Positions 1,678-58,378 of a stretch of DNA of 64,000 nucleotides are shown piece after piece. Within the stretch, counting starts at the first letter, position 1. Each line of letters starts with the position of its first letter. Made by a program: the position numbers and the translations under genes. The notes beneath the pieces were generated by a model. That model saw only the letters and a program-made list of their open reading frames with translations. It made no database searches and had not been told where the DNA came from. The stretch is from Tetragenococcus osmophilus (GTDB taxonomy: Bacteria; Bacillota; Bacilli; Lactobacillales; Enterococcaceae), in NCBI RefSeq assembly GCF_003795125.1, contig NZ_CP027783.1, positions 682,001 to 746,000 on the forward strand. The letters are read 5' to 3'.

Positions 1678-2643
1678 ATGGATAAAAGGAAAATGGCTCA
1701 TGAGCTACAACAACTTTATATTTTAAGTCAACGTATTTCTAGCTTTAAAGAAGATTTTCGTTATCAAAATCTTTATCACGGCTATTTAGGAGAGATTTAT
1801 CTGGACCAACTAGTTCAGATTTTCGGTGAGAAATTTGAGTATTTAGATGACCTTACCTTAGTTTTTAAGGAAACGACAGTACAAATTGATAAAATCTTCA
1901 TAGTAAACAATACTATTTTTCTCATTGATATGAAGTATTATCAAGGACACTATATTTTTCAAAATAATAATTGGTATAAAAACGGGAAAATCTTACTAAA
2001 AAATATCTTTGAACAACTTCGCAAGGCCCAACGAGTGGTACAAAATATTTTTGATCAACATCATCTTCCTCTAAAGGTTGAAGGCGTATTAGCTTTTATG
2101 AATCCTGACGCAACAATTGAAATTATGGATAATGTAGCTGAAAAAGTATTATTTTATCAAGATATCCCTAATTGGCTATACGAACTAAACACTTACAAAA
2201 CAACGAGTGATGTTAAAAATTGGAAAGCCATTTTACAACATTATTGTGTCCCAGCTTTTAAGTCACAAAAAAGGATTCCTATTGAAGACATCAAATATTT
2301 TAAAAAAGGGATTTGTTGTCGTTCTTGTCATGGATTCCAGACAACTGAAAACCATAATTTCATTGTTTGTTCCTGCGGTCATCGAGAACCTAAAGTAACT
2401 GCTTGTGCCCGCACTATTTGCGAATTTGGTGTTTTATTTCATGACCGTGAATTAAAAAGAAAAGAGTTACAACTTTTCTTCGGAGACTCTATAAACCCTC
2501 GTTACCTGGCTTTTATTTTAAGCAAGTATTTTCCTGTGGCAAAAAGAGCGGGGCATATGTCTACTCGTAAAAATAAAGGAATTTTATTTGAATATTGGTT
2601 TGAAGATGAAATGGATTATTTTCATTCATTGGAAAAAAGTTAG
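1678..2643 (+). CDS. NERD-domain protein with C-terminal zinc-ribbon-like cysteines
   Basis: The 321-residue protein carries a nuclease-related domain (NERD) in residues about 30-150: an early YLGEIYLDQL helix and a core VQIDKIFIVNNTIFLIDMK, which places the conserved Asp and an acidic-x-Lys pair where endonuclease-like folds keep metal ligands. A cysteine-rich segment near residue 215 (CCRSC, then CSCGH) looks like a zinc ribbon. A good ribosome site (AAAGGAG) precedes the ATG. It stands alone: npr is divergent and a strong terminator follows directly. NERD proteins are predicted to act on nucleic acid but their substrates are mostly unknown, so no specific role is claimed. Confidence 0.75.
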   Translation: MDKRKMAHELQQLYILSQRISSFKEDFRYQNLYHGYLGEIYLDQLVQIFGEKFEYLDDLTLVFKETTVQIDKIFIVNNTIFLIDMKYYQGHYIFQNNNWYKNGKILLKNIFEQLRKAQRVVQNIFDQHHLPLKVEGVLAFMNPDATIEIMDNVAEKVLFYQDIPNWLYELNTYKTTSDVKNWKAILQHYCVPAFKSQKRIPIEDIKYFKKGICCRSCHGFQTTENHNFIVCSCGHREPKVTACARTICEFGVLFHDRELKRKELQLFFGDSINPRYLAFILSKYFPVAKRAGHMSTRKNKGILFEYWFEDEMDYFHSLEKS

Positions 2644-2648
2644 TTTAT

Positions 2649-2680
2649 ATCCGTTCGGGTCTACCGGACGGATTTTTTTG
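2649..2680 (+). terminator. Rho-independent terminator of the NERD gene
   Basis: A 10-bp stem (ATCCGTTCGG with CCGGACGGAT, one G-T pair) around a GTCTA loop at 2649-2673 is followed by seven T residues. It begins six bases after the stop codon. Confidence 0.93.
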
Positions 2681-2691
2681 TTCTTGAATCA

Positions 2692-2875
2692 GTGAATGAC
2701 CATTCCCTTTCCTTTTTAATGTCCATTCAGCAGTCGAATGAACATCCTTTTCTCCTTTTAATGTTCGTTCACCCTCTGAATGAACATTCCTTTCCATTTT
2801 TAATGTTCGTTCAGCACCTGAATGGACATCGTTTCTCCTTTATAATGTCCATTCAACAGTTGAATGAGCAAAGTA
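2692..2875. repeat. Array A: tandem 42-bp units, each with an imperfect 10-bp inverted repeat
   Basis: Units begin at 2719, 2761, 2803 and 2845, exactly 42 bp apart, preceded by a half unit. Each has ATGTYCRTTC, a 7-base loop and GAATGRACAT (a 10-bp hairpin with G-T tolerance), then a 15-base pyrimidine-rich linker ending in TTTTA or TATA. The array sits between the NERD terminator and the xfp promoter region. The same family recurs in inverse orientation at 58253-58378. An open frame through the array is a product of the periodicity and is not called a gene. Confidence 0.92.
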
Positions 2876-3024: not shown

Positions 3025-5388
3025 ATGTCAGTAAATATTGATTTTAAAGAATATTTAGAAAGAATGAATGCATGGTGGCGTGCAGCAAACTATATTTCTG
3101 TTGCGCAAATTTTCTTAAAAGACAATCCTTTGCTACGTCGTCCAATTGAAAAAGAAGATATAAAAATTCATCCTATTGGTCACTGGGGAACAATTGCTGG
3201 ACAAAACTTTATTTATACTCATTTAAATCGTGTTATTAATAAATTTGATTTGAATATGTTCTATATTGAAGGCCCTGGTCACGGTGGCCAAGTAATGGTC
3301 TCTAATTCGTATATAGACGGTAGTTATTCCGAAATTTATCCAGAAGTCACTCAAGATGAAGCTGGGTTAAAACGATTATTTAAGGAATTTTCTTTTCCAG
3401 GTGGAATGGGCTCTCACGCAGCACCAGAAACACCAGGATCTATCCATGAAGGTGGCGAATTAGGTTATTCAATGTCACATGCAGCTGGCGCTGTTTTAGA
3501 TAATCCAGACGTTATCGCAGCTACAGTTATTGGTGACGGTGAAGCTGAAACAGGCCCATTAGCTGCTAGTTGGATGACAAATAATTTTATTAACCCTGTC
3601 AACGATGGGGCAATCTTACCTATCTTACACTTAAATGGAGCTAAAATTGCAAACCCAACTATTCTAGCACGTAAGAGCGATGAAGATTTGAAAAAATATT
3701 TTGAAGGATTAGGCTGGAAACCTTATTTTGTTGAAGGCGATGATCCTGAAAAACTTCATCCATTAATGGCTGAAACTTTGGATAACGTGATTACTGAAAT
3801 TCAAACAATCCAAAGTGAAGCTCGTCAAAAATCAGCTGAAGACGTTAAAATGCCTCATTGGCCTGTGATTATTTTCCGCACCCCTAAAGGTTGGACGGGT
3901 CCCGAAACTTGGGATAATGAACAAGTTACAGGGACATTCCGTGCCCATCAAGTACCTATTCCAGTGGATACTGAACATATGGAATACGCGGAAGATTTAG
4001 TAGAATGGTTGAAATCTTATGGTCCAGAAGAATTATTTGATGAAAGTGGCAAAATCATTGATTCAATTAAAGAAATTTCTCCTAAAGGAAATCAACGGAT
4101 GTCGGTCAACCCGATTACAAACGGAGGCCTTGATCCAAAAGCATTAGATATGCCTGATTGGCGCAAACACGCGGTGGATACTTCCAATCATGGAGCGCAT
4201 ATCGATCAAGATATGATGGTCCTTGGTGATTTTATAGCAGATATTATGGAAAATAACCCGAAAAATTTCCGTGCCTTTGGTCCAGACGAAACAAAATCCA
4301 ATCGACTAAACAATATGTTTAAGGTAACAAATCGCCAATGGGTAGAACCAAGAGAATTATCAGATGAATGGCAATCTGCCGTTGGAAGAGTGATTGATGG
4401 TCAATTATCTGAACATCAAGCTGAAGGCTTCTTGGAAGGCTATGTATTAACAGGTAGACATGGATTTTTTGCCAGTTATGAAGCATTCTTGCGGATCGTT
4501 GATTCCATGTTAACGCAACATTTCAAATGGATTCGTAAAGCTAGCGAAAAAAGTTGGCGTAACCCTTATCCATCATTAAATGTTATTTCATCTTCTACGG
4601 TCTTCCAACAAGATCATAATGGTTATACCCATCAGGACCCAGGTGTCATTACACATTTAGCTGAGAAAAAACCTGAATATATTCGTGAATATTTACCAGC
4701 TGATGCTAACTCACTTATGGCTGTTATGGATAAGTCCTTTAAAGAAGAAGATGTCATCAATTTAATTACCTCTAGCAAACATCCAAGACCACAATTTTAT
4801 TCTGCTGAAGAAGCGCAAGAAATTGTCGATCAAGGGGCGAAAAAAATTGATTGGGCAAGTACAGATGATGGAGAAGAACCTGATATCGTGTTTGCAGCTG
4901 CTGGTTCTGAACCAAACTTAGAAACATTAGCGGCTATCTCGATATTACACGAACAATTTCCTGAAATAAAAGTTCGCTTTATCAATGTGGTTGATCTTTT
5001 GAAACTACGTCATCCTGATGTGGATCCACGTGGATTAAGTGATGAAGCATTCGATAAATTGTTTACTAAAGATAAACCTATCGTATTTGCCTTCCATGGC
5101 TATGAAGGATTGATTCGTGATATCTTCTTTACTCGTCATAATCGCAATATAAGTATTCATGGTTACCGTGAAAATGGCGATATCACAACACCATTTGATA
5201 TGCGTGTAAAAAATGAATTGGATCGTTTCCATTTAGCAAAAGATGCTGCTACTATCGTTTCCCCTGAAAAAGCAGACGATTTTGCCAAGAAAATGGATGA
5301 AACATTACAATATCATCATGATTACATTCGTGAAAACGGCGAAGATATCAGTGAAGTACAAAATTGGCAATGGCAGGATATAAAATAA
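3025..5388 (+). CDS. xfp: Xylulose-5-phosphate/fructose-6-phosphate phosphoketolase
   Basis: Thiamine-diphosphate enzyme that splits xylulose 5-phosphate (and often fructose 6-phosphate) with phosphate to give acetyl phosphate and glyceraldehyde 3-phosphate (erythrose 4-phosphate from the hexose), the key step of heterolactic and pentose fermentation. The 787-residue length is that of the family. Residues 50-65 (HPIGHWGT) and the PGHGG segment near 84-88 match the phosphate/TPP site; [14 protein letters not shown] (170-183) is the TPP-binding motif. The ATG at 3025 follows AAAGGAG with proper spacing; upstream in-frame codons are low-complexity and lack a site. It is monocistronic between array A and a strong terminator. 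The acetyl phosphate produced can feed AckA at 24.8-26.0 kb. Confidence 0.96.
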
Positions 5389-6067: not shown

Positions 6068-7888
6068 ATCGAGTAGGGCGAAATCAATCGCCCTCTCACG
6101 TCACCTGGACATACGGTTCCGTATCCGGCGACTCCATTATGAATATATGTTATGTCTATATTGGTAGTAATCTAAACAACTGACTAGGCCTGCTTGGCCT
6201 AGTTTTTGTTTAGTTATTGCCCTTCTTACACAGGTTTTGGTAGCTACCCACTGGTAGTGGTTTCCTGCGTACGATGTTAGTTTAGCTAAGCTCTTATTTA
6301 CACCTAACTTTTGTAATCCCCATTGTCTCTTGGAGGGAACCTTCCACATCTTCCAGACGATGGTTCGCAATCGCGTTCTTAAATGGGCGTCGATCCGTTC
6401 CATCTTGGCTTTCATGGACGAGCTGGAAAAGTAATTTATCCATCCGCGGATGACTTCATTTAACTTTTCCAGCCTCTTTCTAAAGTTTATTGACCATTTT
6501 CTTTGAGTTAACATTTTGAGTTTTTTCTCGAATTTTCGGACAGAGTCCTCATGAGGTCGGCTCATCCAGCTTTTGGCTTTAGTGTCGTAATAGAAACTAA
6601 ATCCTAAATATTTTAGCTGGCTGGGCCGCGTAACCTTTGATTTGGTTCCATTAACTTTTAGCCCTAACTTATTTTCAATCCAACGAATGACTGAATGCAT
6701 CACTCGATTGGCACTTGTTCGGCTTTTAACCATGATGAGACAATCATCGGCGTATCTCACAAAGGCGAGCCCTCGGCTCTCAAGCTCTTTGTCCAGTTCA
6801 TTTAGCATGATATTACTAAGAATGGGCGATAAATTCCCTCCTTGTGGGGCTCCTCGATCCGTTGGGTGGTATTCATCGGCGACCATGACACCTGCTTTGA
6901 GATATTTTCGAATAAGCGATTCTGTGTCTCCGTCTTGGATCATACGATGTACAAGACTCATCAGCCGGTCTTGAGGAACGTTATCAAAGAATTTTTCTAG
7001 ATCTATATCAACGATCCATTGATAACCTTCATTGATCGTCTTCAATAATTGATTGACGGCCATTTCACAATTTCTGTTCGGACGAAATCCATAGCTAAAT
7101 TCCGAAAAGTGGGATTCGCATATGGGTGTTATAACCTGAACAATGGCCTGCTGAATCACGCGGTCTATTGTTGTAGGTATACCGAGTTTTCGTTTCCCAC
7201 CATCTGACTTTGGGATCCCAACTCTCTTTACAGGTTGGGGCTTGTAGTGTCGCTCTCTTATTTGTTGACAGATCGTTGCCCAGTTGTCTTGAATATAGGC
7301 ATGAAGCTCGTCGAGCGTGACTTCGTCAACGCCGCTGGCTCCTTTATTTGCCCGGACTTTTTTATAAGCCTCATTCATATTTTGCCGGTCAAGGATACGT
7401 TCTAACATCTTCGACATAATGTGCGCGACTCCTTTCCGCTTTTAAGTATTCGTCTTAGATTGGCGTAGCTACCGACTCATTTACGTTTTGTCTACCACTA
7501 CTATCAGACAGTACTTAAAACATACATTTTGTGTTGCACTATTCCATGGTTCAGTCCTTCGGAAACATGGTTTCCTACTATGACATCTGCTGACTTCTCA
7601 CTATTCGTTGTTACTACTAAATCGTTAGTGAGACCTCACGGGATAAGTGTTATCTCTTTCCTCGTTTACCCATAAGGTTTACGCCACAAGATTACGGTTA
7701 CCTTTTGGACTTTATCGCCTTTAGCCGACTTATCCGCTCGTAGCGCCTTCCTACCTTATTCCTGTTCGTTGGGCCACGATTTCGCTATTGCTTCCTCTCT
7801 CCCGTGCCTCACAGCACGAAACTTGCAAGTCGCTTTGGGATTCGTTGGTAACGACGCTCCACAGAGACTTTCACTCTAGACATAACAC
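6068..7888 (-). mobile_element. Group II (bacterial class C-like) intron with its reverse transcriptase
   Basis: Evidence on the minus strand: about 470 non-coding bases (domains I-III) before the RT gene; a domain V-like hairpin at 6101-6131 (GGATACGG paired with GTATGTCC, within a TCGCC/GGTGA stem); a domain VI-like hairpin at 6075-6095 (GGGCGA with TCGCCC); and an ORF lacking the HNH endonuclease. The 3' end is placed near 6068 (CTCGAT). The 5' end is uncertain: GTGTT at 7888 resembles the GUGYG start, but anything from 7888 to 7897 is possible. The element lies about 15-22 bases behind the trxA terminator hairpin in the same orientation, the usual target choice of group IIC introns. Confidence 0.85.
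6137..7417 (-). CDS. ltrA: Group II intron reverse transcriptase/maturase
   Basis: Intron-encoded protein of 426 residues that helps the intron splice and copies it into new DNA sites. Reverse transcriptase blocks are clear: KRKLGIPTTIDRVIQQA, YGFRPNRNC, the PQGGNLSPILSN block near 191-202 and the catalytic YADD at 222-225. The maturase (domain X) segment follows, including RGWINYF near residue 330. There is no C-terminal HNH nuclease, as in class C introns. AAAGGAG lies about 11 bases upstream of the ATG at 7417; ATG at residue 4 is an alternative. No frameshift or stop is seen, so the element may be active. It lies wholly within the intron. Confidence 0.95.
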   Translation of the reverse strand: MSKMLERILDRQNMNEAYKKVRANKGASGVDEVTLDELHAYIQDNWATICQQIRERHYKPQPVKRVGIPKSDGGKRKLGIPTTIDRVIQQAIVQVITPICESHFSEFSYGFRPNRNCEMAVNQLLKTINEGYQWIVDIDLEKFFDNVPQDRLMSLVHRMIQDGDTESLIRKYLKAGVMVADEYHPTDRGAPQGGNLSPILSNIMLNELDKELESRGLAFVRYADDCLIMVKSRTSANRVMHSVIRWIENKLGLKVNGTKSKVTRPSQLKYLGFSFYYDTKAKSWMSRPHEDSVRKFEKKLKMLTQRKWSINFRKRLEKLNEVIRGWINYFSSSSMKAKMERIDAHLRTRLRTIVWKMWKVPSKRQWGLQKLGVNKSLAKLTSYAGNHYQWVATKTCVRRAITKQKLGQAGLVSCLDYYQYRHNIYS

Positions 7889-21690: not shown

Positions 21691-21816
21691 AAAATCTAGA
21701 GCTCCTTCGTTATTCTTACTCTAGTTTTGTTCAAATCTAGAGCTCTTTTGCTATTCTTACTCTAGTTTCATTTAAAACTAGAGCTCCTTTGCTATTCCTA
21801 CTCTAAATTTTGTTCA
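21691..21816. repeat. Array B: tandem 41-bp units with inverted-repeat arms of a different sequence
   Basis: Three units repeat at 41 bp (CTAGAG at 21696, 21737 and 21778). Arms CTCTAGTTT and AAACTAGAG flank a 4-base loop, and hairpins are joined by a 17-base pyrimidine-rich linker (CTCCTTTGCTATTCYTA type). Design parallels array A (10-bp arms, pyrimidine linker ending TTA, about four helical turns) although the arms are unrelated. It fills most of the 365-bp gap between the M42 peptidase and the PepSY-like gene. Confidence 0.9.
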
Positions 21817-21923
21817 AAAAGCTGAAAAAGCAATCATTAGTAATAGCTTTTATTAAACGTGTTTTCGTAATCTATGTTAAAATACAAGCAAGTTTATTTA
21901 TAAGAAGAAAGGAGCACAGGACA

Positions 21924-38414: not shown

Positions 38415-38487
38415 GTCTTGCTAATAATACTTCAATGGAAAAAGAGGTGTCTAATACGTATTTGGATATGGTAGTATATAAATACAA

Positions 38488-38522
38488 CTTAGAACATCAC
38501 TTTCTTGCAGTGATGTTCTAAG
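38488..38522. other. Perfect 14-bp inverted repeat without a T-run
   Basis: CTTAGAACATCACT (38488-38501) and AGTGATGTTCTAAG (38509-38522) enclose a 7-base loop. No T-run follows on either strand, so it is not a standard terminator; it may be a processing signal, an operator, or the remnant of an element. Confidence 0.75.
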
Positions 38523-58248: not shown

Positions 58249-58252
58249 ATTG

Positions 58253-58378
58253 ATTGAACATTATACAGCAAAAACAATGTTCATTCGGTAGCTGATTGAA
58301 CATTACAAAACCAAAATGATGTTCATTCGGTAGCTGATTGAACACTATAAAGCCAAAGCAATGTTCATTCAGCAATAA
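58253..58378. repeat. Array C: three 42-bp units of the array A family, inverted
   Basis: ATTGAACA starts at 58253, 58295 and 58337, exactly 42 bp apart. Each unit pairs ATGTTCATTC with (G)ATTGAACAT around GGTAGCTG-type loops and has a purine-rich linker. Read on the opposite strand, arms and pyrimidine-rich linker match array A at 2692-2875. It lies between two terminators. Confidence 0.9.

Follow-up and report, generated by a model that had tools for sequence, protein, structure and literature searches.

Tandem palindromic arrays with a 41-42-bp step in Tetragenococcus: candidate in-phase sites for a dimeric DNA-binding protein

Arrays of alternating, inverted half-sites repeated at a rigid 42-bp step lie between genes of Tetragenococcus, a genus of salt-loving bacteria. 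The best explanation at present is that they are in-phase sites for a putative dimeric protein, working in the manner of BIME-2 or sopC but probably a member of neither group, a tentative reading to which we give a probability of about 0.43. The array under study, array A, is located at 2694-2871 (no strand assigned) of the window, i.e. the whole 64,000-nt stretch of Tetragenococcus osmophilus DNA that was analysed, and comprises nine half-sites. A single right half-site, GAATGACCAT at 2694-2703, is followed by four 27-bp left-right units, each of the form 10-7-10, starting at 2719, 2761, 2803 and 2845. The four units and their spacing of exactly 42 bp, as given in the preliminary description, are confirmed, and the array is slightly longer by the extra half-site; the 15-base pyrimidine-rich linker attributed there to every unit follows the first three, and the array ends at 2871 with the fourth. 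Tandem Repeats Finder reads the array at period 42 with a score of 164, with an alternative reading at period 84. A two-unit pattern matches twice in the window, compared with no match in 100 dinucleotide shuffles, and neither a narrower nor a mis-spaced version of the pattern has a match there. In an Rfam scan of array A no family reached the gathering score.

Upstream of array A is a gene for a NERD (nuclease-related) domain protein (1678-2643, plus strand), followed by a terminator-like hairpin of the intrinsic type with its T run (2649-2673, plus strand, from terminator scoring); the array begins 21 bp past this hairpin. Downstream is a phosphoketolase (XFP) gene (3025-5388, plus strand), which like the NERD gene was identified by domain scan. 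A second array of the same family, family A, is found in the window at 58252-58371, between a convergent pair formed by a DUF975 gene and a queuosine-synthesis gene, and has six half-sites, with a right half first and a left half last. Elsewhere in the window Rfam detects group II intron domains (6137-7818, minus strand), and the 426-aa open frame that follows looks like the putative reverse transcriptase of that intron.

Further copies were found in the genome and its relatives, with the 42-bp period kept. Within the T. osmophilus genome, BLAST with array A gives 14 matches that resolve into seven arrays, and a pattern search adds an eighth; all eight were read. In total, family A was located at 46 loci, one of them a single unit (L129), in eight of nine Tetragenococcus genomes. 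A covariance model built from 69 aligned two-unit stretches (of 76 built with identical units entered once, two bad edge stretches and five others being omitted) likewise matched eight of the nine genus genomes, G006 being the one without a match, and under the stricter filters of Infernal it matched 0 of 96 other genomes of the bacterial family. Over GTDB contigs the exact two-unit pattern occurs in 23 stretches, 20 of which belong to Tetragenococcus (halophilus, muriaticus, solitarius and one MAG); the other three are from Hormoscilla (two) and a Verrucomicrobia member (one), and a unit scan found no 42-bp array in them. Judged by these sequence searches, the family-A arrays are specific to Tetragenococcus. 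An origin from a plasmid or phage was rejected, since no match was obtained among plasmids or phages and the two-unit pattern is absent from viral contigs.

The spacing of the half-sites is consistent across loci. Over the 46 loci, the distance is exactly 26 in 171 right-left pairs and exactly 16 in 155 left-right pairs (122 and 121, respectively, in an earlier count of 33 loci), so that half-sites in family A alternate in orientation with regular spacing. Pairs at a near distance other than 26 or 16 number 36, mostly off by 4-6 bp and in a few cases in flanks; most of the 4-6-bp offsets arise because the internal repeat GAACGAAC, with its repeated GAAC, gives extra matches. Pairs off by 1 bp number four (L096, L123, L033 and L116). 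The ends of the arrays are informative as well: 23 loci run from right to left, 13 from right to right, 5 from left to left and 5 from left to right. The excess of right starts with left ends (23 vs. 5) suggests that the elementary unit is a right half, 15 bp and a left half. The 10-7-10 hairpin that was first taken as the unit is present, but the more general unit seems to be this dyad across the 15-bp linker.

Written as GRACAT-N15-ATGTYC, the dyad is offset from the 10-7-10 hairpin and is common to family A and to a second family, C. Exact copies in array A are at 2740-2766, 2782-2808 and 2824-2850. A genome-wide count gives 80 dyads, compared with 0 for a reversed control, and 732 kb of other members of the bacterial family contain two. 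All but one of the 80 are inside family A or C arrays that were seen; the lone exception, at 38492 of the window, is an intergenic GAACAT-N15-ATGTTC within a perfect 13-9-13 palindrome (38487-38521) and in no array seen. This solitary palindrome may represent an operator, or a unit from which an array could be seeded. A PurBox-type operator was considered for the likeness of GAACAT, but PurBox spacing does not seem to fit.

Much the same period is found in repeat families that are unrelated in sequence. A tandem-repeat scan of 464 kb of the T. osmophilus genome (the window and twenty 20-kb samples; periods 25-130, score of at least 60) returned, outside long open frames, only arrays of 41-42 (or 84) bp among those of period 30-130. 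These belong to family A (42 bp; one array also 84) and to families B, C and D (each 41 bp). The exception in the 464 kb is a 48-bp array, also read at its 96-bp multiple, within a 243-residue open frame. In the 732 kb of other family members, the sole array in the period range 33-52 has a step of 45 bp and lies in a 1037-residue open frame. Family B, CTAGAGT-N15-RCTCTAG with a period of 41 bp (40 in some arrays), has the N15 with arms of its own and is represented in the window at 21692-21818 (tandem-repeat scan and pattern); it is limited to the genus, with matches in eight of nine genus genomes and none of the 96 others. It is also seen at L199:470-576, and is sometimes in one intergenic region with family A. 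Family C, CAGGACATA..TATGTCCTG with period 41, occupies 28 places in the T. osmophilus genome, more than family A does (e.g. L193:5692-6054, L189:570-763 and L205:15734-15908); outside it, BLAST detects the family in T. muriaticus (G005) alone, apart from two weak matches in the MAG G008. Family D, ATTGGAGGCA..TGCCTCCAAT, also of period 41, is located between two divergent genes at L203:12385-12500. Among dyads matching the arm patterns, the spacer is N15 in 48 of 50 for family A, 22 of 24 for family C and all 30 for family B.

In 110 kb of genome G006, which has neither A nor B, there are two arrays with a 41-bp period and a different sequence. A sample of 200 kb from G007 contained no array of period 33-52. 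Unrelated 41-bp intergenic tandem repeats with less clear palindromes are seen at L208:6097-6181 and L216:9074-9329 (G006), L132:1196-1288 (G001) and L090:2055-2142 (G007). Over all Tetragenococcus loci examined there are 37 arrays of period 42, all of them family A and sought on purpose, and 25 of period 41, of which 15 are family B, these mostly sought on purpose; the other periods within 30-60 are 40 (5, family B) and 48 (1). Near-identical spacing in unrelated families suggests that geometry as such is important. The usual explanations of bacterial intergenic repeats are descent or RNA folding. Unrelated families with one period, three of them with one spacer, would instead point to a physical rule of helical phase and a protein partner.

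The preliminary description had suggested, as one option, protein sites arrayed along the same side of the helix. The geometry fits this option best, and the recurrence of a 41-42-bp period in families unrelated in sequence strengthens the helical argument. The units would be operator-like DNA dyads whose GRACAT half-site cores face each other across 15 bp with their centres 21 bp, or two turns, apart. The step from dyad to dyad, 42 bp in family A and 41 bp in family C, is about four turns and would place dimers of the putative protein on one face, and successive dimers may bind cooperatively. A common period of about four turns with cores two turns apart is most simply accounted for by a protein binding one face. 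Units would be gained or lost whole via recombination or slippage between repeats. By analogy with BIME-2 and sopC, the closest functional parallels, in which the repeats seat large complexes, the likeliest role would be that of a nucleoprotein block organising or insulating the border of a transcription unit. Counting against this reading, part of a rigid period may be passed on when units are duplicated in tandem.

The arrays turn over in whole units. The same junctions are occupied by arrays in several species, and unit number at one junction ranges from 1 to 9. The cysK-alsD region, read in eight genomes, carries 1-9 elements in G000, G002, G003, G004, G005, G007 and G008, from exactly one right half-15 bp-left half element in T. 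muriaticus (G005) to nine in G007, and family B is present there too in G004 and G008. In G001 the region by eye has one decayed element and a different 41-bp repeat, and in G006 the match covers part of one gene only. At another site G003 has six units vs. one each in G000, G001 and G002 (single units read by eye); because the species lacking the long array retain a single unit, this locus, the only one compared in this way, offers no clean empty site. Loci L127 and L119 have no differences in 240 flanking positions and differ in length by one unit (42 bp). From these site comparisons, change is by whole units, and fast. The linkers diverge by substitution with little change in length. The erratic copy number and the lack of a match in G006 indicate that the arrays are not essential.

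Where flanks were read, a simple ORF caller places the arrays between genes. With the 46 loci merged by flank homology into 21 junction groups, the adjacent genes are tandem in 13, convergent in 5, divergent in 1 and unresolved in 2, a lean to the 3' sides of genes that is not significant (P 0.22); a first count, taking 29 loci as independent, gave 15, 9, 2 and 3, respectively. The flanks read by eye had no common module and no target duplication. In L037, from about 1610, new sequence directly follows a T. muriaticus family-A array and is presumably similar to group II introns at their 5' end. Class C introns insert beside hairpins.

Such turnover is what would be expected of the main rival, a possibility that we rate somewhat below the protein-site reading: selfish or neutral palindromes, MITE- or BOX-like, that spread through intergenic regions and vary by slippage or unequal recombination without a host role, their conservation reflecting recent amplification. 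Changes of whole units alone (L127 vs. L119, the six units of G003 vs. one in G000, G001 and G002, the one of G005 vs. nine of G007) agree with it, as does the near confinement of family C to the T. osmophilus genome and T. muriaticus, which indicates that families come and go. In favour of the protein-site reading, neighbouring units differ at 11.1% of half-site positions (259/2340), 24.4% of linker positions (271/1110) and 35.8% of centre positions (293/819), a contrast to be read with the caveat that the half-sites themselves served to find the arrays. Pooled over seven orthologous pairs, the differences are 5.6% in half-sites (31/558), 10.7% in linkers (42/392), 16.3% in centres (26/160) and 7.6% in flanks (122/1599). 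In the best-aligned pairs (L028/L036, L122/L040 and L001/L026, L001 being array A and the last pair having one extra unit) there is no clear slowing, with 15/268 in half-sites vs. 17/264 in linker plus centre; this counts against the protein-site reading, and no weight is placed on the pooled contrast. Against selfish amplification, neutral duplication does not predict that A, B, C, D and others share a period of 41-42 bp and three of them the N15 spacer; linkers also change by substitution at nearly fixed length, and the target duplication was not seen by eye. Selfish amplification thus accounts well for the turnover but poorly for the common geometry, and it is compatible with the protein-site reading.

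A broader proposal, which we consider rather unlikely, is that the families are built on one geometric plan (N15 in A, B and C; intergenic dyads repeated every 41-42 bp). Each family would have as its reader a separate paralogue of a putative dimeric DNA-binding protein or recombinase able to gauge helical turns, and at junctions such as cysK-alsD one family would replace or join another.

It is improbable that the arrays were made by a Y1 (RAYT-type) or other transposase recognising their palindromes, as for REP/REPIN sequences. Alternating half-sites in clusters do recall BIMEs, and Y1 transposases are found in seven of the nine genus genomes. REP palindromes are GC-rich and preceded by a GT(A/G)G head (PMC2817692), whereas no such head is present at the stem foot in 163 family-A units, and the arms are AT-rich. 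Furthermore, G007 has many arrays but no Y1 (PF01797) match, and REP/BIME membership was rejected on these grounds.

Equally doubtful is a function as sites for site-specific recombination, in which a tyrosine-type recombinase would swap whole units at a 7-bp asymmetric centre with inverted 10-bp arms on either side; recombinase sites have such a layout of arms. At centre positions 11-13, complementary pairs number 17.6 vs. 26.6 in shuffled halves (sd 3.7, P 0.004; 21 junction groups), and an earlier count of 25.0 vs. 36.5, from 29 partly non-independent loci, gives the same picture. Both this deficit and the exact steps in unit number would suit a recombinase; however, ordinary recombination between repeats yields the same steps, and centres differ within an array. 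That family-A centres are less self-complementary than shuffled halves was unexpected, and gives each unit a polarity.

Least probable of these alternatives are RNA hairpin elements, i.e. transcribed arrays that stabilise or terminate transcripts. Predicted folding of array A beats 200 of 200 shuffles on both strands (z -9.1 and -4.9), but both strands do so because tandem palindromes must; two units were scored terminator-like. The claim that arm changes tend to keep their pairing is true only of G.T on one strand, which reads as A.C on the other. Array A has 4 G.T and 2 A.C arm mismatches, and the two kinds are equal overall: distinct departures from pairing number 125 G.T vs. 129 A.C over all arrays and 72 vs. 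77 on the sense strand of tandem neighbours, with no excess of G.U over A.C on either strand. Identical units in one array entered the pairing counts a single time. Arm positions 2-10, taken over 150 distinct units, are about as complementary as independently varying halves would be, and with one unit for each of 21 junction groups there are 156.7 complementary pairs vs. 155.2 in shuffled halves (sd 4.7), so no compensatory change is seen at these positions. A covariation score over all pairs of 0.166 vs. 0.121, reached by none of 500 shuffles, would favour RNA, but derives almost wholly from the outermost pair, which differs between species. Covariation of the arms, tested on more copies, thus fails except at this pair. 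The equality of G.T and A.C departures, with the independence of the halves, indicates a DNA dyad array and not an RNA hairpin family, which was rejected on strand symmetry and the lack of compensation at positions 2-10; moreover, a period fixed across unrelated families has no RNA reason.

The outermost pair, complementary in 12.9 cases vs. 6.9 in shuffled halves (sd 2.1, P 0.007; 21 junction groups), follows species. In five of the six genomes richest in half-sites, a single outer letter prevails: A in G000 (36/46) and G005 (30/40), T in G002 (31/38) and G003 (68/76) and C in G008 (26/32). G007 and the small number of units in G001 show a mixture of letters. Counting against the protein-site reading, nearly every unit of the nine-element array of G007 has the same arm mismatch. 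If the arrays are sites for a dimeric protein, such species-linked letters would follow from a common reader in each species that changes between species.

A protein-coding repeat (42 bp is 14 codons, and some frames are open across family-A arrays) can be dismissed, since L001 and L026 agree at 95% in DNA but only 81% in residues and families B, C and D have a period of 41.

No description of these arrays was found in the open-access literature, and absence elsewhere in print cannot be claimed from this. Several known systems can nonetheless be compared with them. CRISPR arrays are also regular, tandem and palindromic, but the linkers of family A align across arrays, i.e. they are repeats and not unique spacers, on which ground CRISPR was rejected. 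The 42-bp period is also shorter than usual for CRISPR. EFAR elements of enterococci are mentioned in PMC3733652; the family-A model had no match in the 96 other genomes of the family. Pneumococcal BOX elements consist of boxA and boxC flanks, with terminal inverted repeats and target duplications, around a 45-bp boxB subunit that varies in number as a VNTR (PMC3049150, PMC1315331). BOX and the present arrays are alike in being intergenic, present at many loci, restricted to near relatives and variable in the tandem number of a subunit, which is 45 bp long in BOX. They differ in that flanks of the boxA/boxC type, terminal inverted repeats and target duplications were not seen by eye in the Tetragenococcus arrays. 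At the least, the loci are likely to serve as VNTR typing markers for soy- and fish-sauce strains.

The sopC (parS-F) locus of the F plasmid has twelve 43-bp tandem repeats and ten 16-bp inverted-repeat binding sites (PMC6238139), nearly the same period and layout as family A. It is a single plasmid centromere bound by ParB, whereas family A occupies many chromosomal loci, and no partition gene was found among nine neighbouring proteins scanned. BIME-2 elements, REP arrays of enterobacteria that bind DNA gyrase, are made of palindromic units in alternating orientation, regularly spaced in tandem, intergenic and variable in length between strains (PMC2817692). Alternating palindromes at regular spacing, the tandem intergenic arrangement and the varying length are all shared with family A, which is set apart by its tens of copies compared with >100, its strict 42-bp step and its lack of a head. 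If the protein-site reading is true, Tetragenococcus would be a tractable food bacterium for testing what BIME-like arrays do, a question of long standing.
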